Assembly: GCF_037038585.1 (NCBI RefSeq)
Contig: NC_092523.1
Coordinates: 42,745,001 to 42,809,000, forward strand
DNA from: Patagioenas fasciata
Lineage: Eukaryota; Chordata; Aves; Columbiformes; Columbidae
DNA length: 64,000 nucleotides
Direction of reading: 5' to 3'
The first letter of the stretch is position 1. Every line of letters begins with the position of its first letter. Positions 3,001-64,000 of the stretch are shown here, piece after piece. The translations under genes were made by a program, and so were the position numbers. The notes under the pieces were generated by a model, which was not told where the DNA came from, did not search any database, and saw nothing but the letters and a program-made list of their open reading frames with translations.

Positions 3001-3214
3001 ATGTTGTGGTTGTAGTAAGTGTCTAATGTCTTATACATTATTTCAGCTCTCATAGAATCAGTTCAGAAAGCAATATATAAGGAATAAATTACATAAGCTT
3101 GTGGTTTTTTGTTTTTGTTTTGTTTGTTTTGTGTGTTGTGTGTGTGGTGGTTTTTTTTTTTTTTTTTACAGTTAAATGTTGACTTCAAGACTCTTCTCTT
3201 CCTTTCTCTTCCAG
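1..3214 (+). other. TMEM192 intron 2 (partial)
   Basis: This is intronic DNA ahead of TMEM192 exon 3. I searched for the conserved N-terminal exon (dileucine DPLL region and TM1) and did not find it, so exons 1-2 are outside the window. Contents are poly(T) runs at 2,748-2,762 and a G/T low-complexity tract ending in T16 at 3,100-3,170 just before the acceptor. The short ORFs here lack coding features. Confidence 0.8.
3100..3170 (+). repeat. G/T-rich low-complexity tract with poly(T)
   Basis: A gtttt/gtgtgt-type simple sequence ends in an uninterrupted T run followed by acag. It lies 45 bp upstream of the exon 3 acceptor and may extend the polypyrimidine tract. Confidence 0.7.
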
Positions 3215-3479
3215 GTTGCTTTTGTTGTTCTGGCATTTTTAGCAGCCATGTTCTGTTCTTACCCCAATCCAAATCAGGATAAGTGCCCTGGAAACTATAC
3301 TCACCCACTCAAAGTGCAGACTGTCATAATCACAGCAAAAGTAATTCTGTGGGTTTTACATGTTGTTTTTGAACGATACATCCAGCACCACCACAGTAAA
3401 GTCAGAAGCAGAGGTTACTTTTCAATATACCGATCAACAAGGCATCTAAAAAGGCTTCCACTGCTGATACACTCCACAG
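3215..3479 (+). CDS. TMEM192: TMEM192 coding exon 3
   Basis: The exon is 265 nt, entered in phase 0 after a pyrimidine-rich acceptor (ttctcttccag) and left in phase 1 at ACAG|GTGAAG. It encodes the end of TM2, the cysteine-containing luminal loop ([16 protein letters not shown]), TM3, and the basic [11 protein letters not shown] segment. Open reading frame continues on both sides of the exon by chance, so the splice sites and human homology, not the ORF limits, set the boundaries. Confidence 0.95.
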
Positions 3480-6400
3480 GTGAAGTGAACTTCTTTTTCT
3501 ATTTGTGTTTTTTTCTTCTAAAGCTTAAAACTATAATGCAATAAAAGACTGAAGATTTATATATAAATGTATATACATTATGAACTTTTCAAATGCCTAT
3601 GAGCACTTATAAATGGTATTTTAGTCAGATGGACCTCCTGACTGAGCTTTCTCACCTGCCAGGTATCTGTCATAAAGAACTTCATAGTGGAAAAATGCCC
3701 ACAAGTGTGAAGTTGAGTAAAATATCTAGTCATTTGCTTCTGGTCTTCAGCCACAAAATGTTCAGCCAGCAAGGTCTGTGTTTGGCTGCCAGGGATCTTG
3801 ATTTGCATACTCATTTGTCTAGTTGGATATGTGGCAAGACTGCTAGTCCTTCCAAGAAGGACTACTACTACTACTCTTTTCTTTCTAAGCTCAGCAATTC
3901 AAGTAGAAACAGCTGATTTGCCTTTTGCTCAACAGCTGCCTGAAATCAGTAAAATAAGCAATTTTCTGATCTTTAGTGGTGTCATGTGCAACATTCAGCT
4001 CTACTCCTGCCTTTTTCTACCTTCTATGGAGGAAGGTTGGTGTATGGGAGTGGTTTAACTCTCTATTCCAAGTTATATCACTGACCAGTGAAGCTGAAAG
4101 AAATGTTGGTACAATTAGCTGGTGTAGCTTTTCTAACAGATAGTACTTCCAACAAATTTAAAATCCATATACCTAGAAGGGATTTTTGACACAGAAATAT
4201 CAGGGGGGAGGGAACAGTGGTGGCTTTTACAGTATTTTTGTGGCTCATAATCCCATCTCCCTTCTGTAAATCTTCTGAATAGCTAGACTTTTTTTTTTTT
4301 CACCCAAATTGTTGTTACATTGGTCTTGCTTTCTATAAAAACCTAGCTTTACTTCCAGCCAGTCACTAAAAGAGCTGGGCAACTTGATGAATGTGTAAAA
4401 ACTTCAGGCTATGGCCACTAGGTAGAGCTCTGAAGGTAAAGATGTATTTGGAGTGCAGTGACAAAATGAGGCTACAGCATGTTTAAGGATGTGTTGAAAG
4501 AGAGTAAAAGGACTACTTTGGACTCCTGCATTGTAATCTGGAATACTTAGCTCTGTCTTCAGTATGAGATGGAGCTCACTTCTCCCCTACCAGACAGACT
4601 CTGGGCATGTATAAATGTTCAGGTGCAGTCAGTCGCATGCTGTGGTCTTTATGTAAGTCATCCATAGTTCAGAAGGTGGTTGTCTCCATTGCTGCAAACT
4701 CACTGCCCTGCTAATTGCTGCTGATACCACTTCTAGCCTGATGGTTCAGTCACCTAATGCAGTATGAAAGAGAACTGTATAGTCCCCTAGGTACATTAAT
4801 GGTTTTAATACACTTAGTGCTTTACTCAGCCACTGGTTATAACATTTCTACAGGAAAGAAAAGAACACTTCACACTCTATATCAGAGGAGAAGAGGGTGT
4901 GTAAAGGGGAAAAAAAAAAGCTTGTTAGGTCTGTAATTCAACAGTTGCTCTCTTCAACTAATGGTGCTCATTTCAGTTAAACTTCCAGTAACTTGCAAGT
5001 AATAGCTAGGCAACTGATGAAAGGCTATGCAAGTATCTCCCTGTGAAAGGAAGGTGTTTTGCTTTTTGTTTTTTCTTCTCTGTTAGCCTCATTTAAATAC
5101 ACTCAAATCCGCCACTTGAAGGAAACCTCCCTGTCACTTGGAATTGACTGATGTGACCTCTTTGGAATTGAAATAAATTGTTTCCCAACAGTTTTGGGGA
5201 TGGATAGCAGCAACAAGGCTAGAAACTCTTTAAGCCCACGCATATATATATTAGGTATTTCTAGTGCATTTCTTCCATTCCTCTTTAAGTGAGAAAAAAC
5301 TATAAAGAAAATTAATAATTCTCTACCATTGCAGTCAAATACTGAAATGAAACCTCATTGTGCTGCCAGCACTTGTAAGCCTGCATCACTTGTTTTTAGG
5401 AAATTAGACAAAGAGGCAAGTATGGTATGAAATGGAAAACCATTACTGACGTGTTGCAGCCTAATGCAGATACTGAGGATGAGAGAATGCGAAATTATTT
5501 CAACAGCTAATTGTTACACCTGTGAAATATTTGTTTTCTAGGTAATGCAGCCCTGCTTTTGATTCTATCAATGCAGCATTCCTTTCCTGATCACAGTAAG
5601 GTGTACCTATATCTTATTCTGGGAGTCCTGGGCCTGGAGCTGATTAGTTCCCTGACATGCTTAGTGATTTACACAGGTGAGAGGCAATTTTTGCCTTCTT
5701 GAGTGAAACTTATTGCTGCTACTTAACTGTTTTGTTTGTATCCACAGTAACTCATTTGGGGTACCCCAAGACACTTACCTGCAACTATAAATACAGAATG
5801 ATCCTGTGCTTGTAGAAGAACTAAGGCAAATCCAAAACAAAAGGAAAGGTTGTCAGGCTTGATCTGATCTCTAGGTTCTCCTAAATGAATGCTCTATATT
5901 ACCTCAAAGCTGTTGATCCGGTGAAGTGGCAATAAATCCATAATTGTTGTGAAAGTATCCTGTGAGCAGGCTTGTCTAGCAGTGTGTTCTCAAATGCATG
6001 CACCACAAGCTGTGAAGCAGTAAAAGCTACCTGGCTCTAATCAGAACTGCTTCTGGGATTTACACGTGGGACTTGCATAGTTGATAGCATGATTGTGCCT
6101 TACCCTCCAAAGTCTTCCTCCTTCCCTAATCCCACTCCAAAAGCTTCAGTTCCTCCTTGTCACTAAAATGGAAGATTCCCTCTAATGAATGTTCAAAAAG
6201 ATATTATGGCTTTTGGAATCTGTACTAATACTAAAATTAGATACTGCTTCATAGAACTGTGAGGCATTGCTTTGTACTGTCACTGTTGGCTTGTAAGGTT
6301 ATCTGCTATTAGGCTTGATGTAAAATATCTAGACTTGATAAACCTCTTTCCATTAAACTATTTCAGTATGATCTAAAATGTTGATTAATAAATGTTTGAA

Positions 6401-9400: not shown

Positions 9401-12400
9401 AACAAGCTGCTGCTTCACTGCAGGTAGCCTAGCTAAAACAGTATTTATCAAAGAACTTAAGTTAGAAGTTCTGACCTAGATACAAGCATCATAACTTTTA
9501 CAACTTTTTTTTTATGGTCTGTAGCTTAATTTATGGCCTGAATTTGGAGACTGAATCTCAGTACCCTTACAAAGACCACTAAGGTTTCAGCCTCTCTTAG
9601 GTGACAAATTAAATTTCGCAGATGTTAAGCAGTATGTCCAAGCTTTGCCATTTGGGTCTTCAATTACCTGTGGTCTTCTAAGCAGTAGGGCTGAGGGAAA
9701 AAAACAAACTGAAAGCCCACCAAACCACCACTAACATATAATCAAAGCCATTACAGACATGAGCAGAGAGAGAGAGTCTGCTTTTTCTCTCCTTCTTCCC
9801 CACTCCCCAGATTCCCTTACTATCTTTTCAACTCCTATCCTAAGGCAATCTTAGCAAAATCTGTAATACATGATTGTTTTTAACTTGGAGCCTGATCACA
9901 AAACTTTTCTTTTGTGGGTTGCTTTCCAACTTTAATTAATAAAACTTTGTTGCAGTGAAAATAAGCAACTTCAATCGTGCAAAACCAAGACCTGACATAA
10001 TTGAAGAAGAAAAGATGTATTCCTACCCTAGTCACATTACCTCAGAAATTGGATTCAGGTAATCTTGTGCTGTGTTCAACCATGGTATATCGGTAACGGT
10101 GACTAATATAATTGCATTACTTTCTGTAGACTTACGTATAATCTTGAATCTCTCAACCAAAACAGAGGTGGAGATAAGTGTTTTGAAGGAAACTATATGC
10201 TTAAGGCTGCTGTTTTACATGCACGGATGAGAAGTAGCACAGTCTTTTACTTTTTACATAATGATGCCAATTTGCTATGATACGGAAATCCTCAAACATG
10301 AGGACAAATGATTTGACCATTTATGGCTTGTTGCATGATTTTTTTCAATCTGCTATAAATAACTGTGCTTAATCTGTGTTAGCTGACTTTATATGGGAGT
10401 TTGAGGAGAGAAACTGGTGTCTTACCCTGTTACCTAAAGTATGCTTACAGAAGCCTAACTTCTGCACCAGTTTCAGACAAAAAAAAAAAAAAATATAAAT
10501 TGTGGACAGTTGATAGATGAAGAAAACTTTGCAGCTTTGTTCTGTGCCAGCAGTTGGGCATGAGATTCTAGCAAGGGCTTTGGAATATATTTCCAGCTTG
10601 GGAAGGTACTTAAAGGTGGGTGGGATACATAAGAGGTAAGAAAGTTCCTGCTGAGACAGAGAAGGTATCCAACACGAACCTCACTAGCACTGAGACTTCT
10701 GGCTTGCTTGTCCATTATGTACCTTTTGACTACTTTAGCATCTTCCAGTTGCTGAAATGAATCTGGTATGGCTTAACAAAAACCAATCATCAAAACTCAC
10801 ATGGATTTCCATACAAGAATTTATTTAGGAGTTTTCTGATACAATTACTTGCATTTGTATGTGTGCCTTAGTAAAAAAATTAAAGTGCAGAGGTGATTAA
10901 TACTTCGGCATTTCCCCTGCTGTTACAAATGCAGCATGCACATGCTTTTATGGAACTTGGAAGTAGATGTCCAGGATACAGGAAGGATTTAGAGTTGTCT
11001 TGAATTTTGATACAATGTCTGACTTCCATCTTGATATAAACACCATGGTGAATGCATGGTGGACCTCATTACTTTCTCATTCAGCTTCTCCCTTGAGAAA
11101 TTCTCAAATGCCCAGAGAATGGGTCTTCAACAATGACCAGCTGAGGAAAAGACTGGATTTTTTTGATTAAAGAGTGCAAACTTCCTGTGAGAACTGATTG
11201 CAAAACAGTTATTTTAATTCAGCTCTATACAAGTCTGACTCTCTCTCCCTTGAGAGTTAAGGTCTATTGAAAAGTGAATCCTGTCAGGCCTTCAGTTGAC
11301 CCTGGCTGTAAGAATGTTTTTTGAATATTATGACCTCTACAACCCAGGCCCTCTTCAAGTTGGTTGTACAGATTACTGGTTAAGGTTGCAAGCTTTCTAT
11401 CTACAGAACTTTTTCCTACACTAGCTGTCCTCCTTGGCACTTTGTAAGAACTATGAAAAGGGCAGTGTTCCTCCTCAAAATGCTGCAAGGCCGAGGAGCA
11501 ACTTTCTAAGCTCCGAGATGTTCACATGTGTACTGAGAAGGCAGATTCCCAAGTGAACTAGAAAAAATAATGTGTAAGAGAAGACTGGAATGTGCTCAAG
11601 CATAGGTACTTGGTTTTGCTATGCTCTTAAGTATTATAGATTTGACAAAATTATCTACTTTTATAGATTTTTCTCAACTTGGCTCTACTTAATGTTGCAG
11701 TGTTACTATCCTAATTAAAATGAAGGATGTCTGAAAGCTGGAAGTGTTTTAAGTGGGCGGTTTGCTGTACATAAGGTAGATCTGGAATAGCACATCTGTT
11801 TGATGCTGTTATGGTCTTGTGACAGATAGTATCACTTTTTATAGTATATCTGCAGATTAATCAATAAACTTCTGTCTTAAACAGCTTATGATCCCCACAG
11901 CTGAATAAAAATATTATGGCTGCTTAAAATAAACTTCTTAGTGTATTTGGAAAAGGTGCCACAGATTTCTCAGTATACTTCTGGCATGTTGTCTGCCTCA
12001 CTAACTCAAGTTTCTTAAACAGTAGGAATGCTCATACTATACAACTTTTCTGTAACTGTATAGAGGGAAATACCCAACTAAATTACGTATACATGGCATG
12101 AAGTTCAGATGAACTTTTTTCTCTTCCTCCCTTCTTATTCAAAAAGGAGGTTATACATAAAAGTGTTGTAGATTGTCTCCTTCAAAAAAAAAAATAGTTG
12201 AGATCAACAAAATTAAAACTGAGGGAAGAAACTTGTTAAAGTATTTGTTAATTAGCTCTGACACTTTTGTGTGTTAGAAAGCTGCTGTCACTTATTAAAA
12301 CCCATATTCACTTTTGTTGTTTCAAGGGAAAATTCAACTTTAGAAGAGATAGTGGAGAAGCAAGGAGATGTAATAGAATATCTTCAGCGACACAATGCAC

Positions 12401-12450
12401 TGCTCAGCAAGAGACTATTGGCACTAACATCTCAGCAGATCAAAACTTAA
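3215..12450 (+). CDS. TMEM192: TMEM192, lysosomal transmembrane protein 192 (exons 3-6; 5' part outside window)
   Basis: This is a four-pass membrane protein of late endosomes and lysosomes, widely used as a lysosomal marker. Four exons joined at consensus splice sites (phases 1, 1, 2) give 208 codons plus TAA, colinear with human TMEM192 from about residue 59 to the end. Visible blocks are the rest of TM2 (FVVLAFLAA), the luminal [16 protein letters not shown] loop with an NYT sequon, TM3 ([16 protein letters not shown]), the [12 protein letters not shown] stretch, two more hydrophobic segments in exon 4, and a cytosolic tail. The tail ends in a probable coiled coil ([18 protein letters not shown]). 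Roughly 59 N-terminal residues, encoded by exons 1-2, lie left of position 1. The C-terminus is five residues shorter than human and lacks its cysteine. The identification is from remembered family sequence and is very secure. TMEM192 converges on APELA. Confidence 0.96.
3480..5541 (+). other. TMEM192 intron 3
   Basis: Intron of 2,062 bp with GT-AG ends (GTGAAG...tttctag). It contains an octamer-like ATTTGCAT near 3,801 and a 9-A tract near 4,910. No exon-like or repeat family sequence was recognised. Confidence 0.85.
5542..5676 (+). CDS. TMEM192: TMEM192 coding exon 4
   Basis: The exon is 135 nt, phase 1 in and out. The acceptor is tttgttttctag and the donor is ACAG|GTGAGA. It encodes [20 protein letters not shown] followed by the hydrophobic run [20 protein letters not shown]. 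These correspond to the last two membrane segments of human TMEM192 (human counterparts LLLILCMQHSFPE and LELICSLICLLIYT). The internal segment is too short and too strongly spliced to stand as a separate ORF. Confidence 0.95.
5677..9955 (+). other. TMEM192 intron 4
   Basis: Intron of 4,279 bp with GT-AG ends (GTGAGA...ttgttgcag). ORFs of 65-84 codons occur but lack family resemblance or splice context. A T run lies at about 8,008-8,019. I see nothing else I can assign. Confidence 0.85.
9956..10058 (+). CDS. TMEM192: TMEM192 coding exon 5
   Basis: The exon is 103 nt, entered in phase 1 after tttgttgcag and left in phase 2 at TTCAG|GTAATC. It encodes the start of the cytosolic tail: [20 protein letters not shown], then [15 protein letters not shown]. 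The human counterpart is [20 protein letters not shown], so conservation is clear. Confidence 0.94.
10059..12326 (+). other. TMEM192 intron 5
   Basis: Intron of 2,268 bp with GT-AG ends (GTAATC...tttcaag). An A13 tract lies near 10,480. Nothing else was recognised. Confidence 0.85.
12327..12450 (+). CDS. TMEM192: TMEM192 terminal coding exon 6
   Basis: The exon is 124 nt, entered in phase 2 after gttgtttcaag, and ends at TAA 12448-12450. It encodes a conserved coiled-coil-like tail ([20 protein letters not shown], then [11 protein letters not shown]), then a divergent QQIKT end. Human continues with about ten residues that include a cysteine reported to form the inter-subunit disulfide. That cysteine has no counterpart here. 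A longer open frame starting at 12,267 overlaps this exon in another frame and is a shadow. Confidence 0.95.
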
Positions 12451-13880
12451 CAGCATTTGGAAAACAACTGCTGGACCTCTGGTGGGAACATGAGGTAATG
12501 TAATATCCGGACTGATTTGTACAGATGACTCTTCTTCAATCATCTTTCACACTTTGAAATAGAAGTTAAGATGGAAGGATGAGCTCTGCATACACTCCAA
12601 ACCTGTTACAACTGGACACTCTGCCTCTCAGTTCTGGAGCTTCAAGGATTTTTAATTCCTAATAGGTTAAAGTTGGACCTGAGGTAATGGTTCAACTTTG
12701 TTCAGTTGTTGCCATCATTTTGTACTGCTGTAACCTTTAAGCTTCAAACTACCAAAGTATTTTATATTTCTAGAACACACATTTGTTCTCTAAAAAATTC
12801 TGACTTCACAAAGGATGTATTTTGAGTTTCTAGTGCTGAAGCTGAGATTAGATATATTCTGTCACTGATTCCCATTACTTCTTATGTTAGAGGTGGTGTA
12901 CTTCAATAATCCTATACAACATAGATACCTGCTTTCTAGATCAGTCTGCTTTTGTACTTTGTCAAGAAAAGGAATTAAACTGTTGTCTGTGCCAGTGGGA
13001 AAATTTAGCATCTAATTTAGGATTAAAAAAAAAAAAAAGCAGTGGGTGTCCTAGAATGGCAAATCTTACATATGTGTGTGGTACAAAACAGTGTCATGAT
13101 AAGCAATTTGAGCAGTTTTTCAGAATTCCGGTTTAAAAACCTGTAAGAGGGATATCTAAGGCTGATGACTTTCTCATTACTTGAGTCTGGCTGGTAATCA
13201 AAGATTTCTACTCTGCCAACTGAACTAACTGAATGGGTTTAAAGATGCATCAGTTACATACATCCTTGCTCCTTACTTTGACCCTTAAAATGTCAGCATC
13301 TTGATTCAAAAGCTAAAATGGTGTATGTGGGAAGGTGAAAAGCAGCAGAAGACAGAAAAGTCGTCTAAAAGTCTGAGAAACAATAGTTCTAGGTTCTATC
13401 TCATGGATTTATTGGGAAGGCTGGTGAAAGAACCATTCTGTTCCAGGTACTACTTTTGTCTACCAGTGTAGACCAAGAATTATTTTAGAACCCAATACCT
13501 CTGTGGGGAGATGGGTGATCACTAATCAAAACTGAGAGGAAGGCTCTCATCAGGAGTAGTCTTGTGGTTCAATATAAGAAAAAAAAAATTCCACCTTACT
13601 GTCTTACTTTGGTACTAGGGCACAACTTCAGAAATAACTAAACTGTTCAGTGTGCAACAAACACAGGAAGGAAGATAAACATTGGAGGTTTTGCTGCTAT
13701 CAACACTAGACTGTTCTCATTAACTGTTTGTGGAAAATGCATCCAAGGTTTTATAGTATAAATGTAATGAATACAAATGTTTTTGGTTTTAGAACTCAGG
13801 TTTTGATGTGATTGTGTATATGAATTTATATAATTTCTATGAAAAGCAGTAAAATGTGACTGAAGTTCATGCACAATAAA
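12451..13880 (+). other. TMEM192: TMEM192 3' UTR
   Basis: This untranslated region runs from the TAA at 12,448 to the first AATAAA downstream. It is A+T-rich, without a conserved frame. Short A tracts occur at 13,023-13,037 and 13,581-13,589. The extent is inferred from the poly(A) signal; longer forms using later signals are possible. Confidence 0.6.
13875..13880 (+). terminator. Probable TMEM192 polyadenylation signal AATAAA
   Basis: This is the first canonical AATAAA after the TMEM192 stop codon, about 1.4 kb downstream. A GT-rich stretch (acaagtgtgaattctgtc) follows 17-35 nt later, as expected for a downstream element. Further AATAAA hexamers occur at about 15,535, 15,951, 17,400 and 17,952 and could serve longer transcripts. 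Confidence 0.55.
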
Positions 13881-13899
13881 TGCAACTGAGGACAAGTGT

Positions 13900-16217
13900 G
13901 AATTCTGTCATTTCTAAGCTCGTGCAGCTGGTGCAGCTTGTTGCAACAGGCAATCTGTTCAGATTTTCTGTTTTCCTGGAGTTCTCACAGCACAGTTTTG
14001 GTGACAAGGATAGCTGTTTACTTGTTTTGAAGCTTTAGGCTTAGTTCTATTCTCTTTCCTGGGTAACACTTCAATTGCACTTCAGACCTTCCCTGCTACT
14101 CCTGTTTCTCTCCAACACAGAGGAATAGGCTGTGCAGTGTAGCAGAACAACTTTACTGTATTTTTGAGGGTATTGCTCATACTTCTCTCATCTCATTCAA
14201 GACTGCTTGAAGTAAAACTTGGAAAGCAATACTGCTGGTTAATCCATGGAATGGGAAAAGTGTGGGTTCTATCTCCTACCCTTTGTAATTCAGAGCTCTT
14301 CATAAGTACACAAATTATTAACAACTTTAAACAATCATCCCTCATTTTTATATCTGTATGATACACCCACCCTATCGTGATTAAGCTTCTGAAAACAAAC
14401 AAACAAAAACAAAATAACAAACTTTTAATGCTTGTACAGGCTCCAAATAGATGCAGAGTCCTCGTTTTTCTAGCTATGCTCATCTTGTTTATCTTAACTT
14501 TAGCCTCCACCAGAGTAGGGTTTGGTGTTGTGGTGACTGATACCATCTGACCAGCTTTGGAGCAGCTTGGGATCTGTCACCAACAGCACAGCCTGGTAAC
14601 CACCCCTGCAGCCTCACAACTAGAGGCAAGTTTCAGGAAAAGAAGAATCACTCAGTGAACGTGGTGGTTTGCACGTGCTCTGCTGCAAACCATCGGAGTC
14701 CTCCTTAGGCATGCTCTGGCAAACCTGCATGTAGGTGAATGCATGTGAGTCTGAAGAGCTGAAGAAATTAGTGATGTTCTTCATGTAATTATAGCTGCTG
14801 AAATGCATAAATATTTGTAGGCCTGTGGTCTTAACTTGGTAAAATATAGCAGATTGCAACCGGGGCAGCAAGAAGACAAACTGAATAAGAATGATTTTAT
14901 TTTTTGTACCCCAGTAGCTTTTTGTTTCTGTAGAAAAACAATGTACACTTTTTCTGGTTTGGGAAAACAAGTACTTCAGACTACCTAAGAAACATAAAAG
15001 ATTCAGGGCTGCCCAAAAAATGTTTGCACTGGGATTTTTAATTCTAATTAAAATAATTTCTAGATGTAATGCTGAAATGTGATAAATATTTTGTACACAT
15101 GAAAGAAAAGACATTGTGATCATCTCTTACAAAAGCACATCATGTTCAAGGGGAAAAACTCTTAGTTGGTAGTTGTGTTTTCTGTTTCTGAGTTGCTCAT
15201 AGAGGAAGCTCTATGTAAATGCTTCAGTATTTCACCTCAAAAAGGAAATCCTTGGTTGCAAACAATTTTAACAGGATTTTCATGTGTTAAGGTTCTAAAC
15301 AAATATGCAGTTAAGCCTGCTTGCAGTCATTCTTAATCTAAAAAAGAAAGTATCAGTGACCAAAGGTGCTTGGGCAGACAACAGTCTGACCTTGAGGTAA
15401 CTCAAGAGATACAAAAAAGCATCCTTGTTATTTGAATGAGTTTGGTTTTTAGGCATTATTGCTAACTAAAGACATAGATTGCACTGCTTGTGCAGTTGGA
15501 GTGTTTCCTACTTCGGACAAATATTTTGCAGAAAAATAAAAACCGTGGACAGGAGTGAGAGATCAGTATGCTAATTGTAATCGTCTGATGATAGTCAAAC
15601 ATTTGAAACTTATTTACCATACTAATGCTTCTCCTGATTGATGTTGGTATAAATCTTATGTGACCCTTAACAAAATTTGGCCTTGCATGTACAGATACTG
15701 AGATATTTATAGTATATGTATGTTGTGTAAAGGCAATATTTCCAGTCTTTATTCTTCTATAATTTCCTTTCTTCCATACTGTAAAGGGAAGAGGTGAATT
15801 GTTTATTATCCTTTGGGAACACACTAAGCTGCTGTTTCTCACCGTAGCCTTACATTTACCTCTATTTCCTGTTGACCGGCTGTTACATCATTTTATATTT
15901 CACTCTAAAATAGACAAATAATTTCAAAGATTTAATTAAACTGACTTTCAAATAAAATTTAAAACTTTTGTAGCTCTACAAGACAAAAACTTAATTTTAA
16001 ATTTCAAAAACTTGCATTTTAGCTTTCACAGTTTAAGGTCTGAGTTTACCTTTGGATCAAGTATTTTGTTAATTGCATCCATGCAAACATCAATTCTGAC
16101 TTTCAATACACAGCAATTTGTACTTGTATATACTGCTTTTATATGTATGCTCATACATGCATATGGAGAGTTCAGTCAATTCAGCTGTTGTAGCACAGTG
16201 TCCAAAGGCTTTGTTTT

Positions 16218-16253
<36 letters not shown>

Positions 16254-18320
16254 AAATGTTCCCATGCCAAACTGTTTTTACCAGATGAAGCTTATGTTGT
16301 GCAAATCAAATAGGTAATTTCAACAGTCAAAAGCAAGTCCAGCTCAGCTGAAAACAAGGTAATTTGAAGCCCTGCCCTCACTGAAGTTAGATGCCAATAT
16401 AGTGCTGTGCTGTAGTAGCATCTTTAATTCTGTTGTGCAAGACCGTCTAGCACTTAAATTTATCTATGGTATCCAACCTTTAATGGGAGAAGTTGGCACA
16501 TATTTCAGCTTCTGCTATGCTTCACACTGCTTCTGACCTTGGTTTTTTTCCCTGAAATAAGGACATTTTCTTTAGTTTGTGAGAGCATTCAGATTTCAAC
16601 ATTTAACATTCTGAGATAATTAAAAATTTTGCTTGTTCTGTCTGGGCATGGAGACAATGCATGATCTGGGTTCTGAAATAATCAAGTATCAAGATGTCAT
16701 GACAGAGTGTGCTGTGATTACACCAACTGGTACTTTTAAATGAAGTTTTTTCTATATGGCTTTTATCAGACTTTTGTGTTTTTAGAAAAACAGAGAATGT
16801 GAGGAATATGGTTACGTGAATAACTACTATTTATTTGTGCCAGAAATTCCATCTGAATCCACATGGAAACAGGACAAACTCTCCATTTTTTTTAGATACC
16901 CTACCTTTGACAACTGAAGAATATAAATTTTGACAAGTGTACAAAATTTATTTAAAATGAGATGTTATTTGAAGTGCATACTATCTTTTTATGAAATATA
17001 CAGTCAACAAGCCAGTTTATAAACATATCCATCAAAGATCACAATCAATGCCTTTTTCAAGAAGATTTTATGGTATCAGCATGTATAAGACGAGACATTT
17101 ACAATAATTTTGTAGACTGACAAAGGGCTTCGTAGGACACTTTGGTATTTACTTTTACATCTGTAAAGGAAGATGCATATATATAGCTCTCTGATAGATA
17201 ACATGTTTTTCTTATTATTTTATCAAAGTTAATTGAATAATTATGATTATATAAAATACCCAGTGCCACACTAAATCCATATATTCATTTATAAGGCATA
17301 ACTGTTAAACAGTTACTCTTCACCTTTCTTGCTTTCCCATATTCTTTACCTGTCCTTCTAAACATACATAGGCATGGATGCATGTGAAAGCTAGGTTAAA
17401 TAAATACTTAAGAAATAAAGTCAGTGGTAGCATGCCTCTGATTTTGGAAAAGGCTTTTTCAAAACTTTTAAAGGTTCACCTCCAGGGTTGGTTTTTTTTT
17501 TTTTGTAGGTATAGTCAAGTTTGACCATCTTTTTATATCCCATCTGGGATGGGATTTTATTTTTCTACATGGAGAAATTTGAAACTCCTGTTAAGCTCTG
17601 CCAGTATGAATCTGATTAAGGTTTTAAGTTCTTAGAGATGAGGGGCTACATACAGACACTGATTAAAAAGTTTTTGATTACTGTTCTTTCACTTATTCAA
17701 AACTGCGTGCGGCAAGAAAAAATACTGGATTTAAACTATGACACTGCTGATATTCCCTCAACTTCATACAATTTACAGAAAATTTGATATTTCAAGACTA
17801 GTACGATTACTTAAAAATCTGGGTATGACTTACTTTCAGGTTTGTTTTCATTCTGCTAATGAAAGGGCTACCATGTTTTCCTTAAGTGTAGGTTTGTAAT
17901 TTCTGCTGATATAAAAAGATGTGAAACGTGTATTTTCAAAAACAAAATGTAAAATAAAAGCTCAATGTATTCTTGACCTCCAGTGCTGAAAAGAACATCC
18001 TATTTTCTGTTTGAAGTTCTCATTCATTGTAGTGCTGTGTTCCAAATATCCCATTCATTTTAATTACAGGAACAGAGTACTACGCAACACTGGGGTTGAC
18101 CAAACAAAGGTTTATTTTCAATGGTCTATTTTTGTGCTCTATTTATAATACTGTAGTGGGTATTTTAGGAAAACTACTATTAAGCAAATAGTTCTCTAGT
18201 ACTGAATTTTCAAGTATGTTTAGCCGTCTGGTTTGGCAGCTCAGTTTAAGAAAACAAACGACAGGCTTCGCAGTAACAGCTCATTAGACAGGAGGATGGG
18301 CTTGACCTTAAGGCCTGACT
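13900..18320. other. Intergenic DNA between convergent TMEM192 and APELA (left part)
   Basis: This is A+T-rich non-coding DNA. It includes a minus-strand open frame of 167 codons at 14,620-15,123 and one of 126 codons at 15,462-15,842; neither has recognisable domains or splice support. A TA microsatellite lies at 16,216-16,253. Several AATAAA hexamers could serve extended TMEM192 3' ends. Confidence 0.7.
16216..16253. repeat. (TA)n microsatellite
   Basis: An alternating TA tract is interrupted once by TG (atatgtatat). It is perfectly self-complementary over most of its length and therefore likely polymorphic. Confidence 0.9.
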
Positions 18321-18324
18321 TGAA

Positions 18325-18460
18325 AGATCTGAGTTATCAGTTTTACATGACCCTTGGCTAATCCCTTATCTCTCTACTTCAATTCTCTATCTATAGAATG
18401 AGAGATAACACTCTCTTTGCTTTCTTATATTGTAAACTCTTGCTATGCTTATGGTACAGT
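18325..18460 (+). repeat. Ancient MIR/CORE-like SINE remnant, sense
   Basis: The order of blocks follows the tRNA-derived MIR-type consensus: a tgacccttggctaatccctt block, a block like the 'tctctgtgcctcagttt' consensus, a block like 'tcatctgtaaaatgagagata', and a downstream ttgtaaactctt block. Many substitutions are present, as expected for an old insertion. The family label is by recall only. Confidence 0.45.
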
Positions 18461-18642
18461 AAGCCAGGTGGACCACTAGTGTGGTGCTGATTTTGGTGCT
18501 ATTACAGTAATAAATTCTATATTATTAAGGTAATTCTGTAAAGCTGTAATGTTAGGTGTTAAAACATGTATGTATACAGTATTAATATGTAAAAGTATAG
18601 ACAAAAAATGGACTTTGTAGTTCTGTGCTGGAGTTTGACATT

Positions 18643-19038
18643 AATTTATTCTAACTACTGCCCTGCATACAGCCTGAATCAAGTAGTCAACAGCAGGTCC
18701 GGTTTCTCTCAGTCCGAACAGTACAGGCCATTAAGAGTGCCCTTGGACAGATCCTTAATAATGCCATGGGAAATCCATCTCTAGGCACCTGGTGTTTGGT
18801 TTGGTCTTTAACTTTCACTGGTCTTTATGAGAGCCAAAGAATGTATAGGGAATGTTTCAACCAGATGAATTTCATGTACATCCTCCCACCGCCACCATCC
18901 ATTTCTTCTCTCCCTTCCCAGGGTGTGAGCCAGGGCCCTTTGCTCCAGGTCTCGCAGAATGTGGCAGACAGGGCTGCTGAGGGTGGGACTGCAGTGGCTC
19001 TATCAGGTCAGCAGTTCTTGATCTGGACTTGTGGTTAA
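18643..19038 (+). CDS. Unassigned coding-like open frame / possible exon
   Basis: An open frame runs from just after a TAA near 18,642 to the TAG-free stop at 19,036-19,038, about 131 codons, with the first ATG at 18,766. A plausible acceptor (tgccctgcatacag) precedes 18,675. Another strong acceptor (tctctcccttcccag) ends at 18,922, with a CAG|GTCAGC donor at 19,004-19,006. The translated text is less hydrophobic and more Q/S/G/A-rich than random A+T-rich DNA (for example SSSQQQVRFLSVRTVQAIK, SQGPLLQVSQNVADRAAEGG). I recognise no family. It could be an exon of an unannotated gene, part of a non-coding RNA, or chance. No downstream or upstream partner exon was found. Confidence 0.2.
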
Positions 19039-19143
19039 ATATCGGTTTAATTGTTGCTCCTTTAAAACACTGAAAAGCCCATTATGAAACTGCTGGGGGA
19101 AAAAAGGAGAGAAATAACCATTAAGGAGAGATTTAGAGGTCTA

Positions 19144-19184
19144 ATGTATTATAAAAGATATAATCTTTTATTTATCTAATACAT
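19144..19184. repeat. Short inverted repeat / hairpin
   Basis: Arms atgtatt+ataaaagat and atcttttat+aatacat pair over 16 bp, with a 3-nt loop and a 6-nt bulge on the right arm. It is A+T-rich, so weak as RNA. It may be a remnant of a small inverted-repeat element or chance. Confidence 0.5.
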
Positions 19185-20760
19185 GGTTGAACTTTTGGAA
19201 AATGTTTCTTAATTTGGAAATTTTAGCTTAAAAGGTTAAAAAAAATCAAAAAGCCAAAAGCAAGAAGGCCTCTAATATTAGATTTTCTTCCATTTTTTTA
19301 TCCCATGTTTTGCCTATGTAACTGATTAAAAATCAAATTCAATGCTCTCATCATTTCAAGCACTGTTGTGAAAAAGAGAGGCTGCTATGCTCATCCCAGT
19401 TTCCAACCACCTGTTGAAATTCAAGCTTAAGAGTCCATCCTGTTTGCATCTGCAAATAGCTTTATCCATATGTACAACTCCATTGAGATCAATAAGATTA
19501 CTCACTTTGAGTTAAGTTACCCAGGCATGTAAATATTTGCTGAATTAGGACTAAAACTGGAAGGGAATGTAAACGTAGATGGTAAATCCTACTTAAGATA
19601 AAGGAGCTGAGCACCCACAATGATGACTGGAGTTAACAGAGTTGGTTCAGGTGCCTGTCACCCCTTATTCCCCAGTCAAGCTTTCTGGATTTCTAAACAG
19701 CTTTATAAAGCAGAATTATCTTTAACTAAATGTCTACAAGATGAATACATACTATGATTTGATAAGTACGCTGTTTGGCTTCATCATTGACTTTTGTTAT
19801 AATGAATCAGCTCCCCAAAGAAAAGGAGATAACGCTGAAAACAGCTTTATCTTGATACTATGTAGTGTGAGTGCCTATGCATCATGCAGCTACTGCAGTC
19901 TCAAGCAAAATGCATTATGTACTGTTTCAGAGCATGTTAGAGAAAACGTAACTGTTTTCTGCACAGTCTCCAAATTATGGAAGCTTAACTGGAGAAAATG
20001 GAGTAAATTTACTTTTCTTAGGAAGTGAAGCAAGCCATTCAAAAGTCATTCAAGAAGTCTCTAGACCTAAATTCCACTGTCCCTGTCATTCAGTCTCTGC
20101 ATGTGGAGTGAATTGATCTGATTGCTTATCTCTTTAGGTTTATGCTTAAACTGATGAGGGAATCTCATTTAATCTCTCTTTTTGAAATGAATGAAGTGAG
20201 GAGACAGAGCATTCAGTAGTAAAGCATCCTTCTGGCATGTACCTTTTTCTACTTGAAGCTCAATTCTGTCACTCAGTATGCAGCCCATCTGAGATTAAAT
20301 TTAAGATATGGTAATCTTTTTTTTTCAGCCTCACAAAGTTGCCAGTTTACCATCCCATATGCACATTCTACATGTTTATAGGCCAGTACTATATAGTGGA
20401 ATGGTACCTTTTTGCATGGCTGGTTTGGGAGTGGTGTACACTTTTTTCACCCAGACGAGATTCTTGGTATAGAGTTGTTAAAAGGTTGACTTTGGTCTCT
20501 TTTTTACTGTTAACTGCTTAGTAAATTGAAACATCTTGGGTTTTGCCATCATTTGTTTATGATGCTCTCATGCCTGGGGCTACATTATTTTAATATATAA
20601 TGAGTTTAGAAGATGCAAAACTCCTGACTGCATGTTTTATTCATTCTTAAATTGCAGGAGCGCCTTGGTTTCCTTTTGAAGCCTACCCTATTTACATATG
20701 CTACCTGTGTGCTTCTGCAGGCACTCAGTATTTGAATGTATATGCCCTCATCAGCTATAA
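19185..20760. other. Intergenic DNA / possible APELA 3' UTR end
   Basis: No gene was recognised. The right end (from about 20,636 upward) may be APELA 3' UTR. ORFs of 95 codons (19,741) and 60 codons (20,339) lack coding signatures. Confidence 0.5.
20589..20641 (-). terminator. Candidate APELA polyadenylation signals (minus strand)
   Basis: On the minus strand AATAAA occurs at 20,641-20,636 and ATTAAA at 20,594-20,589. They are the first such hexamers after the APELA stop codon, about 0.8 kb downstream. Usage is inferred; a further 3' non-coding exon could move the true end. Confidence 0.35.
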
Positions 20761-20769
20761 AGCATTACT

Positions 20770-20912
20770 GTTTTGCACTTGTATAGCCTTGCATCCAAAG
20801 AGCTCAAAGTCTTTCGCTGTCAATGATTAAGAATTACAGTCCCCTTTGAAGTGGGTAAATGCTACTACCTTCGTGTTACTGACAGGCAGAGCGAGGTGAC
20901 TTTGCCCTGCAT
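20770..20912 (-). repeat. Ancient SINE-like remnant, antisense (MIR/CORE type)
   Basis: Successive blocks match the reverse complement of an old amniote tRNA-SINE type repeat: cacttgtatagc, catccaaagagctcaaagt, a cccctttgaagtgggtaaatgctactacc block (consensus-like 'cctgtgaggtaggtaaatattatta'), then gacaggcagagcgaggtgac and ttgccc. It lies immediately left of the CpG island. Confidence 0.5.
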
Positions 20913-21438
20913 CCAAAACGAAAGAAGTGTTAGCGCAGAAGTCCCGGAGCATCCTCTCCAGCTACCGCTTTGTGCCTCCTTCACATGCGCTACACTGTTT
21001 GCCCCGCAGCTTTGCCAATAGCTTTAAACGTTTGCAGGGCAGCAGTTAGCCCTATTTATAATAGCAGACCAGGGGATTTCCCACTCTGCCTCGGCAAACG
21101 CATTTGCGCGGGAGCGGTGGCCTGGGAGGGTAACGCGGAGGGGGCGGCGTGGCCTGAGCAAAGCCGGGCGCTCACCCGCGTCCCACTGTGCCTTGTTTTT
21201 CAAAACAAACCACCGGCGACCGGGTGAAATCACACCTGCGGTTTGATTTGCTTTGTCAAATACCTCTTAAACTCTTCCGAAACGCAGGTGTACGTTAGGA
21301 AAAGTGCTTATCGCGGGGAGCGCTCCCCACCGCAGCCCGCTCCGCAGAAACCGTGCACGGAGGCGGCGGCAGCTGCCCCCTCCTGCCGTGCGTTGTACCC
21401 GTGCGGCGTGGATTACCTGGCCCCCGTCCCGCCGGGGC

Positions 21439-21527
21439 TCAGGGGAAGGGCACCCTGGAGTGGAGCGGCACACAGCGCCGGTGGGAGCAGCCGTGCCGGT
21501 GGAGCTTCCTGCGCAGGGCCAGGTTGG
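21439..21527 (-). CDS. APELA: APELA coding exon 2 (mature peptide)
   Basis: Read on the minus strand after a long pyrimidine tract and cggcag acceptor (21,529-21,528). It encodes (A)NLALRRKLHRH, then GCSHRRC, then VPLHSRVPFP and TGA at 21,441-21,439. The last seven residues HSRVPFP match the vertebrate family. It has no internal ATG and is too short for ordinary ORF detection. Confidence 0.95.
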
Positions 21528-22068
21528 CTGCCGAGAGAAGAGGGGAGGGAGGCAGGCAGGCAGGGCGTGAGGGGGAGGTCGCTGGCAATGTGTCCCCGTT
21601 AGTCGCGGCGCGGGGGCTAGCGGTCCTGCTCCCCCCGGAACGGGCAGGGGCGGCCCTGGCTCCGCCGCTCCCCGGCGTCTACCGCTGCCGTCCGCCGCGC
21701 GCGCAACAGCTCCCTACCTTGAGCCTTATTCTGACCCTCCCAAAGTTGCCAGACTCCTGAGATACCTGATGTATGATCCCACGCTGCCGCTATACGCAGA
21801 GATGAAGAGCATACAAACCCAGGCTGCAAAAACCCTCCGTAAAACGCGTGGCCGCGGAAGCCAGGCAGATAGGAACCCGGCCGGAGGGCAAAAACCGCGT
21901 GTCGGATGCGGTCTGAGAAACCCGCCGGCGGTGTCCGGGGCAGGCGCGACACCCCCCCACGGCACACGCAGTCCTGGTGCGGCACCGCTTACCTGGCCTC
22001 TGCCCGGCGGCGGGGAGGAGGCTCGCCAGGAGCAGAAACACGATACAGAGGAGCAGTCGGAGTCTCAT
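21439..22068 (-). CDS. APELA: APELA (ELABELA/Toddler), apelin receptor early endogenous ligand, complete
   Basis: APELA is a secreted peptide hormone that signals through the apelin receptor (APLNR/APJ) in mesendoderm migration, heart and vessel development and placenta. Two coding exons, 22068-21993 (76 nt) and 21527-21439 (89 nt), join in phase 1 across a 465-bp GT-AG intron. They give 54 residues plus TGA, the same length as human. Residues 1-22 form a signal peptide (MRLRLLLCIVFLLLASLL, then PAAG). The mature part starts QRP, contains the dibasic LRRKL processing region and two cysteines, and ends with the hallmark CVPLHSRVPFP. Start context is gacATGa. Two core positions differ from human: HGC instead of HNC, and CVP instead of CMP. 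The gene lies within a CpG island and converges on TMEM192, the same relative orientation as in human. Confidence 0.95.
21993..22068 (-). CDS. APELA: APELA coding exon 1 (signal peptide)
   Basis: Read on the minus strand from ATG at 22068. It encodes 25 codons plus one base, ending GQRP-G at donor CAG|GTAAGC (21,993|21,992). The hydrophobic core LLLCIVFLLLASLLP is a classic signal sequence, and human ends this exon with the same GQRP residues. Confidence 0.94.
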
Positions 22069-22326
22069 GTCTGCAGTCAGCGTAGAGGCGCGCTCTGAAG
22101 GGAGCAGAGATGTATAAAGGCGAAGAAATGTACAGAACAGCGGCCCGCGTGGCTGTAAGGGGCCGGCAGCGCCGCAGGCAGCCCCCCCCGCCTGGCTCAC
22201 ATGCCAGTGACAAGCTGGGGAGCCCGCAGGCAGCGGCGTCTTCCAGCAAGGTTAATGATCAGGCAGGGGCAAGGTTCCTGGTTTGCTCTGCGGTCAGTGC
22301 CTCCGTGCCTCCCTTCTCCTTTTCCT

Positions 22327-22502
22327 TTTTTTTTTTTTTTTTTGGTGTCACTCCCCCTTATTTTCCATAAGCAAACAATGCAGGAATGAAAAGTCCGTGT
22401 AAACAGTAGCTGCAGTCAATGCGTTAGGGGCAAGGAGGCTTCTGAACAATGCAGCGACTTCACTTTAAATTCAGCCCGGACAGGAAAAAAAAAAAAAAAA
22501 AA
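22327..22502. repeat. Paired homopolymer runs (T17 and A19) about 140 bp apart
   Basis: A T run (22,327-22,343) and an A run (22,484-22,502) face each other about 140 bp apart upstream of APELA. They could be tails of unrelated retro-insertions or simple slippage tracts. No SINE body is recognisable between them. Confidence 0.5.
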
Positions 22503-23298
22503 ACAAAAACGTAAAACAAGGCCTGGTGTTCCCTCCCCCATTTGCAACTGTTTAAACTTTACATTGCCCATATTGGTGCCACATGCAGAAAGCAATGGCA
22601 GTGGCAGGAAGTGTGTGTGTCCCCCTCCCCTTTGTCCCCTCCTGATTGGGGGGGGGGCTGGGAAGCTCCCCCCAGCACAGCCCTCCTCGCAGCTCAAATA
22701 CTTTCTCTCTTCTCTAAACTAGCTGCGAAGTTGTGGCTATTCAAAGTGAAACTGGTAGCAGTTAAGGCTAATGGCTGTCTTTTGTACCGTCAAGTATTTT
22801 TAAAGGATCAGAATATTCTGGAATTGATTTGCGAGTTTTTTGGGGCTTTTGTGTGTGTGGTGGTTGGTTTTTTTTGTTTGTTTTTTTTTGTTTGTTTGGG
22901 TTTTTTTTAACCATGACGGGTAAACCAGAAGTATTACGTGATATAAATGTTACAACAGTGTCATTTTAGGGAAAGCAGCTTTGGCTAGGACGTTACGTTT
23001 GCATAGCCCATTATATTTTCACTAGATTACGGCGAGAGCTCGCTTCAGTAACCTACACTGAAAACAGCTGGTGTAATAAAAGTGCAGGTATGCAAGCCTG
23101 AAGAAAGACAAGCCCTGCGAAATGTCTTAGCAGCAGGGATGGTTTTGAAATCCAGTGAATTACTGGCATCAGTTAAAATTTGACTGGTCCTTTTCTTATT
23201 TTCAACCTGAACATTTTTGGGGATGGAATAGCACCTGGAAAGTAGGAAAATGAAAACTCGTCCCTTTTTGGAAGACATTTGTGTTTTAAAATAGCAGC

Positions 23299-23338
23299 AA
23301 AGAGTACACTTCTGCATGAAAGAGTACATTTCTGCACA
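23299..23338. repeat. Tandem duplication, 20 bp x 2
   Basis: Two adjacent copies of aaagagtacaYttctgcaYR, differing at three positions. Confidence 0.8.
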
Positions 23339-23879
23339 GATGAAATACTAGTAGTACTAATAGCTAAGTATTATCAAAAGTTGTCCAAAGTTATTCGTTG
23401 CCTAATTCCATAAAGAGTGGAATACGTTTGTTTGTGGTTTTTTTGTTGTTTTGTTTTGTTTTGTTTTAATTCAACTGTCCCGGTATTTTTTTCCCCTGTT
23501 GTGGGTTTTCCCTTTTTCTTTAAAAGCCTATTTAACTCAATAGTGCATGCTAGTCCTTCCTCTTACAGTTGTGTGTCATTACTGGTTTACTTGATTTGTC
23601 TAGGTAAAGTATGTCTGTGTGAATTAAAAGACAACTTGCAGCTTGAATACATGGTGGGAGTAGTTATTAATGTTGTTACTTTAAAATTATGTCAAAGCTG
23701 CTGAGGAAGATGTCATGGACAAAACAGTAACCAAGTAAATCCTCTACTGATTGATCACATTGATCTGTCAGAAGCAGCACATGCATCTATCCCAGTGTTC
23801 ATCTATGCAGGTTGGTGGTCTTTATGTTATCTCTGTACAATCTCTGGCCTTTAAACTAGACTTCTGTTTAATGCTGATG

Positions 23880-24068
23880 CTGCTAGCTCAGCTGAAATTA
23901 GGGTCCCATGGCGCCAACGACAGAATTGTCCTAAAGAGTGTATAATTTCGAATAGAAAAGTGGTGGAGAAGTGGTGTGATCAGCTCACACAGCGAGTTTG
24001 TGACAGAATCAGGCTTATATCCTCAATATCCTTAATCTCACTCCAGTGTTCTCTCCACAGGGCTGCTT
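23880..24068 (-). repeat. Ancient tRNA-derived SINE-like element, antisense
   Basis: Read on the + strand, the blocks gggtcccatggcgcc, gacagaattgtcctaaagag, ctcacacagcgagtttgtga, cagaatcaggcttatatcc and ctccagtgttctctccacagg follow an amniote repeat known in bird and turtle DNA, in reverse orientation. That consensus runs 'agggccccattgtgc ... gtccctgccccaaagag ... gtcacacagcaagtctgtgg ... ctccagtgctctatccac'. The last block is the tRNA-like head. It is heavily diverged, so the insertion is old. Confidence 0.55.
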
Positions 24069-27000
24069 TTAGGGACACGTTCACTTCTTGGCCATCAATG
24101 AGAACACACTAGCCATGGTATTCATACAGCCCTGTAAATGACGATGACTTTCATTCAGCAGTGAACTATGTAAGGTTCAGACTCATAACCTTAAGGTGGA
24201 AAGTAGTACAGACTTCAAAGTGATAGGGACTCTGTAAATAGCTAAAAGGGCAGAAAGAATGCATAGACCTTTGCCAGTCCCTCGGGCTATCTAGGCCTTT
24301 TTTGCACCTCTATATGGTGAGGTTTACAGACATACTGAGGAGACATTACATTTTAAGGGAATTCAGTAAGAGAAAATATTTAAGTGAGCTTTTTTTTTTC
24401 TACTTTAGTTTAACTATGAGCTATTCATTCCACAGTTAGTGCAAAAATTTACAGAGACTTATTTGAATAATAAAGACCATGTCACTATAGCATGGCCATT
24501 ACAGATTTCTTGTAATTTTCCTGTACCCTATAGTAATAATTTGATGCTTACACACTGAAGAAGTTTCTAAAATGTATTGCAGTCCCAATCTAGAATTTAT
24601 AGTTCTTTTGCAAGCCACTTTCCTTCAGGTACTTTCTTTCATGTGGCATACCACTACTTGAAAGTAGGCAAAGAACAACTAGACAGAATGTAGTGATGTA
24701 ATAGTTCTGCCCTTTTCACAGTGTTTGCTGGTGTGGTTTTGGTTTGGGCTTGTTTGGTCTTTATTGGCTTAAGAGGAAAGGGAATGTAAAGTACATAAGA
24801 AAGCTGGAGGTCAGTAGATAATGCTTTATGAGCTCGAATAATTAATTATTTGAATCAAAAGCTTCCCTTCTTTCTTATAATCTGAAAGGAACACAATAAA
24901 GGAATGACAATTTCAGCATTTATTGCCTATACTATTGCTATTTTTCCAGGACGCACTCTTTTCCCTACCTCCCCTTTGATAGGATCAAAAGAATCAAATT
25001 ATCAGTTTACTTCAAGAAAGTGGAAAACATAGTTAGCACATTGCAGAAATAATTTCAAAAGTTCCAACAAGGAAAATTTATGACTGCCTTTCCTGGCTAT
25101 CAGACATTAACTGTAAGTAACACACGTGGCATTGTCTTTTGCTTGACACATTTCAGTAAGTCTTATTCAATACTGTATCACTTCACTGGATACACAATAA
25201 ATTGTTCTGCATTACATTTTCAGTAGAGAGTGGCTGTTACATTCTGCCTGTTTGGGGGGGGGAAACAATTTAAAATTGTTGTGCCATTTCTAAGAATAAG
25301 ATTGGGAGAAATCAGGGAAAAGTGACTGAGGGAATATAAAATTATTTTGTCATGTATAGAAACATATAAAGTCTTTTGATAATTTAAATGAGTGAGTGAT
25401 TGGAAGCATGAAAGATAAAATAATGGGTAGAAGTAGAATAAGCAGAGTTGGATGATAACAAGAAGACAGAAGGATAATTGGACACCTGCAGTAAGGAGTA
25501 AGGGATTAATTAGCATTCCCTATTGGGCTGCTAGTCAGGGATTGAATCCTACCTTACCTTTGAAGGCCAGCACATAACTATAAATATTAGTGTTTGTCAT
25601 TAATCTTTGAGAACACCTTTCGGCTGCATGTTAAATGAAACTTCTCAAGTACCAAAATTACTTGTTATATATGGCAATACTATTTTCAGTCTCTGTATAT
25701 CAGATACCCCCTTGGATAATATCTCTTCACATCCTAAAGATCCATAAAAATACACTTATCATTTTGGATCTCTACTGTGCTATGAGAAGACATGCTGAAT
25801 GCTTGTCAGAGTGATAATGACAGTGAAAATTCTTGTTTATTTTGACTTACAAGTATCAGATAAGATATAATATCAGAGTTCCTAATTGGATTTCCTTGCT
25901 TTATGTTCCTCAAATCCACCCATCCTGCTGATCTGGAGGAATTACTTCAGCAACCTGACAAGATCAGGGATAAAACCTTTACTTCAAAATAATTTGATGA
26001 AGCAAATAGTCAAGTCCAATGGCAAGTGTCATTAGGAAAAATTCTGGGCTTTTCCCAGTTCTTTTCTATTACAATGCAAAATGGCATATGAACTGTGCAA
26101 CAAATTAAAGGAAAAATGGAAAAAAAAGGAGTCTCTATTTGAAGAGGGAAAAAGTTGGCAAAGAAATGCCGGAAAGGATAAATTTTGAAATGTTGTTAAG
26201 GCATCAGTGATGCATTTTTTTGCCGCAAATTTCACTGGGGATTATTATCACATGGTTTTATTTGGTCTATGTGCCAGCCACGAATATACAGGATGTTTTT
26301 TCTGCAGACCAGGGTACAGCATTGGAGGCCAAAGGTAATGTTTGCCTCCTTCATTGCGTATAATTGTGAAGAATACTTTTTCTAGACAAAACTCATTGGC
26401 TTGAGAATTACAATTTCATAAGAAAGTGATGGGCTTTCTTTCATTATTTTAATGTCCTTGGAAATGACAGCCTACTCAGAAATTAAAATCCGTTCCACCT
26501 CTTTTGCATTTTATGCTTTTTCTGGAGGAAAAAAAAAATCTGTTTCCCTGCCTGTTTGTGCTCAGCTGCCTTTCCTGCCTGGGGGGTGAGGGTGCTCTGA
26601 AGAAAATAGTGAAGGAGGTGGTCATCTGGCAGAAAGAATGCGCACCAGTAACCTGACACTGGAGACAGATGTGCTCAAGGAAAGGAAATGGGGGACGGCT
26701 CAGACTGGGCTAAACCTTGTATAATTTTGACTTCCTCAACCTCTCCCCCCTGGCTTTGAGGGTTTTCCATGTGCATTGCAGAGATGCACAGCTTAGAAAT
26801 TTTAAACTGGGAAGAAAGTTTGCTGCATCCATGGCAGCATCTCCAGGATCTTACTCCAGTGCAAACCATAATTAGAATATTAATAATATTAGAATAATAG
26901 CTAAAAGGAACAACATTCTCTGGTAGATTTGAGTCTATCTTCTGTAACCTTACAATCTGTAGGGTTGATTTCATTCAATACAATGAAAATAATAGCAGCC

Positions 27001-51060: not shown

Positions 51061-51600
51061 GAGGAAATGACTTCCAATGAGGTCCGTACCACAGACGTTT
51101 CCATGTTCAAGACCAAGCTGTGTTCTTCCAGTTCAGAGTTAAAGAGGTACGAACTTCTGAGACACCTTTGTCTTCCCCAGGAGCAGGATGTGACCAATCA
51201 CTTTTTAGCCTGGTCAGAAGAGGGGACTGGGATGCAGCTGGCCCTGAGACACTGTCTCTGAGCTCTTGCAAGCGTCTGCTCTGCATGGAGCATCTTGCCT
51301 TTGTGGGCTTCTGAACCCTGGGGAGCACAGTGGGAAGGTCTTCTGTATGAGGTACCAGCTCCCACTGAGTTCCTGCAAGCAAAGCAGGACATTGCCCACA
51401 TGGTTCATATTTTCTGCTTATTAAAAGAAGAGTGGAATAATGTTTTTTTGCTGTAGGAGGGTTTGACAAGGTGTAAACTGCACAAGGATTCCTGGAATTA
51501 ACTACCGTTACCGGAAGGCAATTGTAATTTAGATACCAGTTTTCACAGTGAATTGATTTGTTTTTGGAAACCCATTTTTGTGCTAGTACTTTATACATTT
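51061..51600. other. G+C-richer patch with overlapping open frames on both strands
   Basis: A minus-strand open frame of 163 codons (51,598-51,107) and plus-strand frames of 64 codons (51,067 and 51,120) overlap here. A pyrimidine-rich acceptor-like tttgtcttccccag ends at 51,180 on the + strand. No protein family is recognised and at most one frame could be real. The region stands out from the A+T-rich surroundings. Confidence 0.25.
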
Positions 51601-62541: not shown

Positions 62542-62555
62542 GTTGCCATGGGGAC
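62542..62555 (+). promoter_or_regulatory. RFX X-box-like site GTTGCCATGGGGAC
   Basis: The left half GTTGCCATGG is identical to the palindromic RFX consensus GTTGCCATGGCAAC; the right half has two mismatches. It lies inside a patch with few stop codons on either strand. Confidence 0.4.
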
Positions 62556-63849
62556 TGCAGGTCTTGTAGCACATACTTCCTCCATCCTCATTAGAGGAGT
62601 TGCTATTCTTGCCATGTCAGTACAAAGGACCTCTCTCAGGAAAAACTGCTCATGTCCATGCTGTCTCAATGAGGTCAGTTCTCATGGCAACTACACTTTA
62701 TCCACAGAAACGTGTATTGTTTTCTGGTACTTTCCCCTTCTGTGTAGAAATGATGTAAAATCCAAGGGAGCGGAAGACTAAGAAAGAAACCTAATTGGCA
62801 TGCAAGCGGCAAACGTTGTGACAATTATTTACCTTTCATGCTGCTCATTATTGTTTCACAAATTATTAAGCAGCCTGAAGTTTTATGAGATGACACATAA
62901 GAACACTCCAATAGGGTTGTTCAGCAAAATGTCCATACAACAGAGGTTTTTTTTTGTTTTGTTTTAGGCAGAAATCAATTTACCGCAGGATTAGTTACCA
63001 TCAGATACGGCAGAAACCAACAGCTCTATTACTGTGTGCCACAGGAGATTATTTCAGCCACTTCATCCCTCCTTCCTCTCCTGCCCCCCTCCTCCAGATT
63101 GAGGAAGCTCAGGAGGGCTGGGATGATCCCGTGAACAGTTGGGAAGAAGAAAGGAACTGCTTTGTTGGTGGGGATGGCCAGGGCACCCTGCTTGCACTCC
63201 GGCTCCTGCCAACAGGGGATTAGGTGGCATGATGGTGACTGATAGAACTACGCCTGTAACAAGGGAATTCTCCGCTGGTGGTATAAGGTTATGTTAAATC
63301 TCCTTTGTAGAACTAGCAGGGGATTGGCTTAAGGGTTGGGTTTTTTTACGGATTTCAAGACCTTTTGAATGGGAAAGACACCCCCCATGCTTTTAGTAGC
63401 ATTTTCACTCTTGAAGAGGAGGAGAGACTTGGCCTTAGCCTAAAAAAACCCAAGCATTTACCTTGATTACAAGAACATCCTCAGTGATGCCAGTCTAAGC
63501 ATTTTATAACTTCTCAGGCCACAAAGTAGAACTGCTGCTAGGAAAAAAGCCACTCCTATAACAAGAGACCGGCCACTTATTGACTGGGAGGTGACTTACA
63601 GCGCTGCTCTGCACTACGTGGCACAGCTCTGTCCAAGTGGGCAGATCTGGCTGTAAAAAGTCTTGCTCTCATACCTTAATGCAATTTCTACACTTGTGAC
63701 TTTTACTGAACCCTTAACTGACTGCTCTCTGTCATTCATATGGTATTTGTAAAGATAAAGTATTATGTACTATAAGTCTACCCACAAGATTTACCACAAA
63801 CCCTATAATTAGAATATTAGTTAATAAAACCTGTAAAGTACTATATTTA

Positions 63850-63993
<144 letters not shown>

Positions 63994-64000
63994 CTAGGAA

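Follow-up and report, generated by a model that had tools for sequence, protein, structure and literature searches.

Two small exons near TMEM192 in a 64,000-nucleotide window encode a predicted APELA (ELABELA, Toddler) precursor in Patagioenas fasciata

Coding exons, intron, and splice sites

This study analyzed a stretch of 64,000 nucleotides from Patagioenas fasciata, hereafter the window, and a predicted APELA coding sequence was delimited on its minus strand as follows.

21993..22068, minus strand: APELA coding exon 1, 76 nt, carrying the signal-peptide region (residues 1-25) and the first base of codon 26
21528..21992, minus strand: phase-1 intron of 465 bp with GT-AG ends, its acceptor pyrimidine-rich and ending in CAG
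21439..21527, minus strand: APELA coding exon 2, 89 nt, carrying most of the mature ELA-32 peptide, the HSRVPFP end, and the TGA stop codon

Read on the minus strand, exon 1 starts at an ATG and ends at the donor CAG/GTAAGC (the slash marks the splice position). This donor ranked 8th among the 6810 GT sites on both strands of the window when scored with a simple donor-site matrix. Joining the two exons in phase 1 and translating them yielded a 165-nt frame of 54 residues ending in HSRVPFP. An earlier note, made from the letters of this DNA, had proposed this structure; on re-translation its exon coordinates, its sizes of 76 and 89 nt, the minus strand, and the high G+C content (0.66 in exon 1 and 0.72 in exon 2) all matched, and the 465-bp intron, the phase-1 join, and the 54-residue precursor with its HSRVPFP end proved exact to the base.

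The same note had claimed that ordinary open reading frame (ORF) calling misses the gene. This holds for exon 2, which contains no ATG, but not for exon 1, the ATG of which opens, when unspliced, a 92-residue frame that runs into the intron and sits inside the listed ORF 21790..22200 on the minus strand. ORF calling would therefore not overlook the gene entirely but would give exon 1 an incorrect tail.

The exon join and a chicken primer

We compared four chicken Apela primers with the locus, and only one of them, the qRT-PCR primer Apela-R2 (from Table 1 of PMC7485868), demonstrated a good fit. On the joined exons, where it lies across the junction, 16 of its 18 bases matched; in the unspliced window, at most 12 of 18 matched in either orientation. 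The two mismatches were synonymous (AGG/AGA and CCA/CCG, codons read by eye). This finding suggests that the Apela-R2 site crosses the exon junction in chicken too.

Identity of the product

The 54-residue product was searched against Pfam, and PF22050, described as Toddler, apelin receptor early endogenous ligand, was the sole family returned up to E 1. The match (E 3.6e-24, 85.3 bits, cut-off 27 bits) covered residues 1-54 of the product and positions 1-58 of the 58 in the profile. A stop-masked frame scan aimed at other genes also hit this family (E 1.4e-7) through the C-terminal 20 residues of exon 2 on their own. Human ELA-32 (PDB 7w0n, 7w0o, and 7w0p) was the sole Protein Data Bank match up to E 1 (E 1e-11) and aligned end to end with residues 23-54 of the product, with identity at 23 of 32 positions of the mature peptide and at 10 of 11 in its C-terminal end. 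The start of the precursor was hydrophobic and leucine-rich when read by eye and was a predicted N-terminal signal; dibasic pairs begin at residues 31, 32, and 42, and cysteines lie at residues 8, 39, and 44.

The two exons are very short and rich in G+C, and open frames arise easily in such sequence, which could favor a reading of the locus as chance open frames linked by chance splice sites. We consider this reading vanishingly improbable. A tblastn search with human ELA-32 against the window scored 50.8 bits at 21525-21442 on the minus strand, the next best score being 18.9 bits, whereas the maximum over 100 first-order Markov resamplings of the window was 23.5 bits. This control and the PF22050 match refute the chance-frame reading. 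Because of the family match, the ELA-32 match, the primer fit, and the chicken-like length, cysteines, and dibasic sites, the locus reads, by sequence, as an intact APELA orthologue.

Genomic setting

The predicted gene lies in a CpG-rich stretch of approximately 1.5 kb, and Pfam matches to a neighboring gene, TMEM192, were identified on the opposite strand. The coordinates of these matches were converted by hand from residue numbers.

21001..22500, no strand: CpG-rich stretch holding the gene, observed/expected CpG 0.70-0.91 per 500 bases
3203-3493, plus strand: TMEM192 exon-like match (PF14802)
5529-5678, plus strand: TMEM192 exon-like match (PF14802)
9853-10062, plus strand: TMEM192 exon-like match (PF14802)
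12319-12426, plus strand: TMEM192 exon-like match (PF14802)

Within 20001-24000, the five remaining 500-base bins had observed/expected CpG ratios of 0.06-0.47. The 2-kb bin 20001-22000 had a G+C content of 0.52, and all other 2-kb bins of the window had 0.32-0.44. The four TMEM192 pieces together span positions 30-236 of PF14802, the first part of the profile lying to the left of the window or being unmatched; the second piece (5529-5678), taken alone, scored E 1.3e-4 and 21.6 bits, which is under the PF14802 cut-off of 25. TMEM192 on the plus strand and APELA on the minus strand are convergent, with approximately 9 kb between their coding ends, and the predicted gene thus occupies the place beside TMEM192 that is expected of a member of this family.

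In bats and other mammals, TMEM192 and APELA form the boundaries of a TRIM60/TRIM61/TRIM75 cluster, according to the available part of PMC10145180. Between the two genes here, Pfam returned no TRIM match up to E 0.1 in three frames each of minus-strand 12501-21502 and plus-strand 12427-18002 and in one frame of plus-strand 18001-21000. The lack of a TRIM match in these frames of the approximately 9-kb interval fits a non-mammal. The residues QRPANL shared with the chicken primer and the short spacing from TMEM192 suggest, more narrowly, a bird or a related sauropsid. On the other side of the gene, MARCHF1, which we presume from human gene order to lie to the right of APELA, gave no match up to E 0.1 in three plus-strand frames of 34001-64000. 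In all, the stop-masked frame scans covered the plus strand up to 21000 and from 34001 onward, and the minus strand from 12501 to 21502.

This setting bears on whether the locus could be a silenced or decaying copy of APELA. The intron is kept, so the locus is not a retrocopy; the frame, both splice sites, the hydrophobic start, and the C-terminal end are intact; TMEM192 is the neighbor, as at the mammalian locus; and the CpG-rich stretch is retained. A pseudogene is accordingly very improbable. The locus is almost certainly an intact, ordinary APELA gene of a vertebrate, to judge from its sequence. The identification in the earlier note was borne out by the full-length PF22050 match, the match to the solved human ELA-32, the processing sites and cysteines, the primer-consistent join, and the TMEM192 neighbor; the similarity search of the 54 residues that it had proposed as a check returned APELA from both Pfam and the Protein Data Bank.

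Other content of the window

The window contains 36 ORFs of at least 90 residues, 10 of which were scanned against Pfam, and only 3176-3544, which belongs to TMEM192, reached its cut-off. A tRNA scan of the window returned no matches, none of the Rfam families attained its gathering score, no ungapped repeats of at least 80 bases were found, and three exact variants of the avian CR1 3'-end motif were absent from the window.

Several weak Pfam matches, all below cut-off and probably due to chance, were observed. An A+T-rich ORF of 163 residues (51107-51598, minus strand) matched the P-11 zinc finger at E 0.017, and a 169-residue ORF with a TTG start (44374-44883, plus strand) matched DUF7338 at E 0.3. 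Among the stop-masked plus-strand frames, 61002-63998 matched Fer4_19 (E 0.0031) and ASFV_360 (E 0.024), and 3-3002 matched DUF7702 (E 0.056).

Transcript ends and regulation

The earlier note had called the gene complete, which stands for the coding sequence but does not extend beyond it: the chicken ELA cDNA has three exons (PMC6315173), and a third exon, looked for beyond the stop codon, was not located here. One possible piece of the 3' UTR adjoins the stop codon.

21417..21438, minus strand: possible 3' UTR stretch, predicted to run up to the donor-like CAG/GTAATC with its GT at 21416

The GT at 21416, 22 bases past the stop codon, scored 7.1 and ranked 160th among the 6810 GT sites, which is not exceptional; it could lead on to a third, non-coding exon. 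On the gene strand, 21 AATAAA/ATTAAA signals occur from 20641 down to 12656, too many for one to be chosen.

The three remaining chicken primers, F1, F2, and R1, had best ungapped matches of 13/20, 15/21, and 15/20, respectively. These lay at scattered places and were rejected as true sites and taken as chance. In 18001-26000, gapped comparison revealed a weak partial match of F1 at 22157, immediately upstream of exon 1 where the 5' UTR is expected, which is possibly real. In the same interval, F2 and R1 had no match in a fitting place, their gapped matches (20852 and 22641, respectively) each lying on the side of the gene opposite to that required for the primer. Because these three primers fit poorly, the UTRs would differ from those of chicken or be spliced otherwise.

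The transcript end matters for a proposal made for mouse Apela, in which a locus makes the hormone while its transcript doubles as a non-coding RNA. The mouse Apela 3' UTR is reported, in the available part of PMC7666558, to bind hnRNPL and to favor p53-mediated embryonic stem cell death. At the present locus the extent of the 3' UTR could not be fixed, and the empty Rfam result says little on such a role; a double use of this kind, as proposed for mouse, appears rather unlikely here. It is also quite unlikely that the transcript ends differently from that of chicken, with other UTRs and perhaps without a separate third exon, and that the lineage retains the hormone but lacks the RNA role proposed for the mouse 3' UTR. 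If that were true, the lineage would separate the hormone role from the RNA role.

Chicken Apela is reported to be estrogen-induced (PMC7485868). No estrogen response element was found anywhere in the window, even with one mismatch allowed, against 0.98 expected by chance; estrogen control may act through other sites or sit elsewhere.

Proposed function and comparison with known systems

By family membership, and by analogy with work on chicken, human, and zebrafish, the product would be a secreted hormone acting on the apelin receptor. A signal peptide of approximately residues 1-22 would be removed from the precursor, and ELA-32 (residues 23-54) would be released and secreted, possibly to be trimmed further at R31R32 and R42R43. 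The C-terminal end of ELA-32 would then activate the apelin receptor and, through it, Gi and ERK signaling. Such activation would guide mesendoderm movement and the formation of heart and vessels in embryos, and endocrine roles may follow later in life.

The APELA gene is already known: it has been described across vertebrates, and in chicken it has been cloned, tested on its receptor, and studied for expression, as reported in the available parts of PMC6315173 and PMC7485868. Our analysis adds no new biology; it yields exact APELA coding coordinates and one conserved neighbor for this species, and it confirms that raw sequence can suffice for the correct reading of a hormone gene that is small, split, and easy to overlook. 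The remark in the earlier note that the locus was long annotated as non-coding agrees with the available accounts for human (PMC5428527) and zebrafish (PMC7666558).

The closest likeness is to chicken APELA/ELA (KX017223), which according to the accessible parts of PMC6315173 and PMC7485868 shares with the present product a length of 54 residues, a coding sequence of 165 nt, the pairs R31R32 and R42R43, and the cysteines C39 and C44. Read by eye, the codons of Apela-R2 give QRPANL, as found here. The two differ in their UTRs, where nothing suitably placed corresponds to the chicken primers F2 and R1 and F1 has only a weak gapped counterpart; the comparison with chicken covered these features. 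Chicken ELA-32 activates chicken APLNR1 in HEK293 cells (PMC6315173), and APELA protein records exist for chicken, quail, great tit, and zebra finch (PMC7485868).

Human APELA likewise has a mature peptide of 32 residues, from which that of the present locus differs by nine substitutions. Unlike in bats and other mammals, no TRIM match separates TMEM192 from APELA in the frames scanned here. Apelin (APLN) has a receptor in common with APELA (PMC6315173); in contrast to apelin, the present product matches the Toddler family alone in Pfam, and its precursor comprises 54 residues compared with the 78 of chicken apelin given in the available part of PMC6315173.
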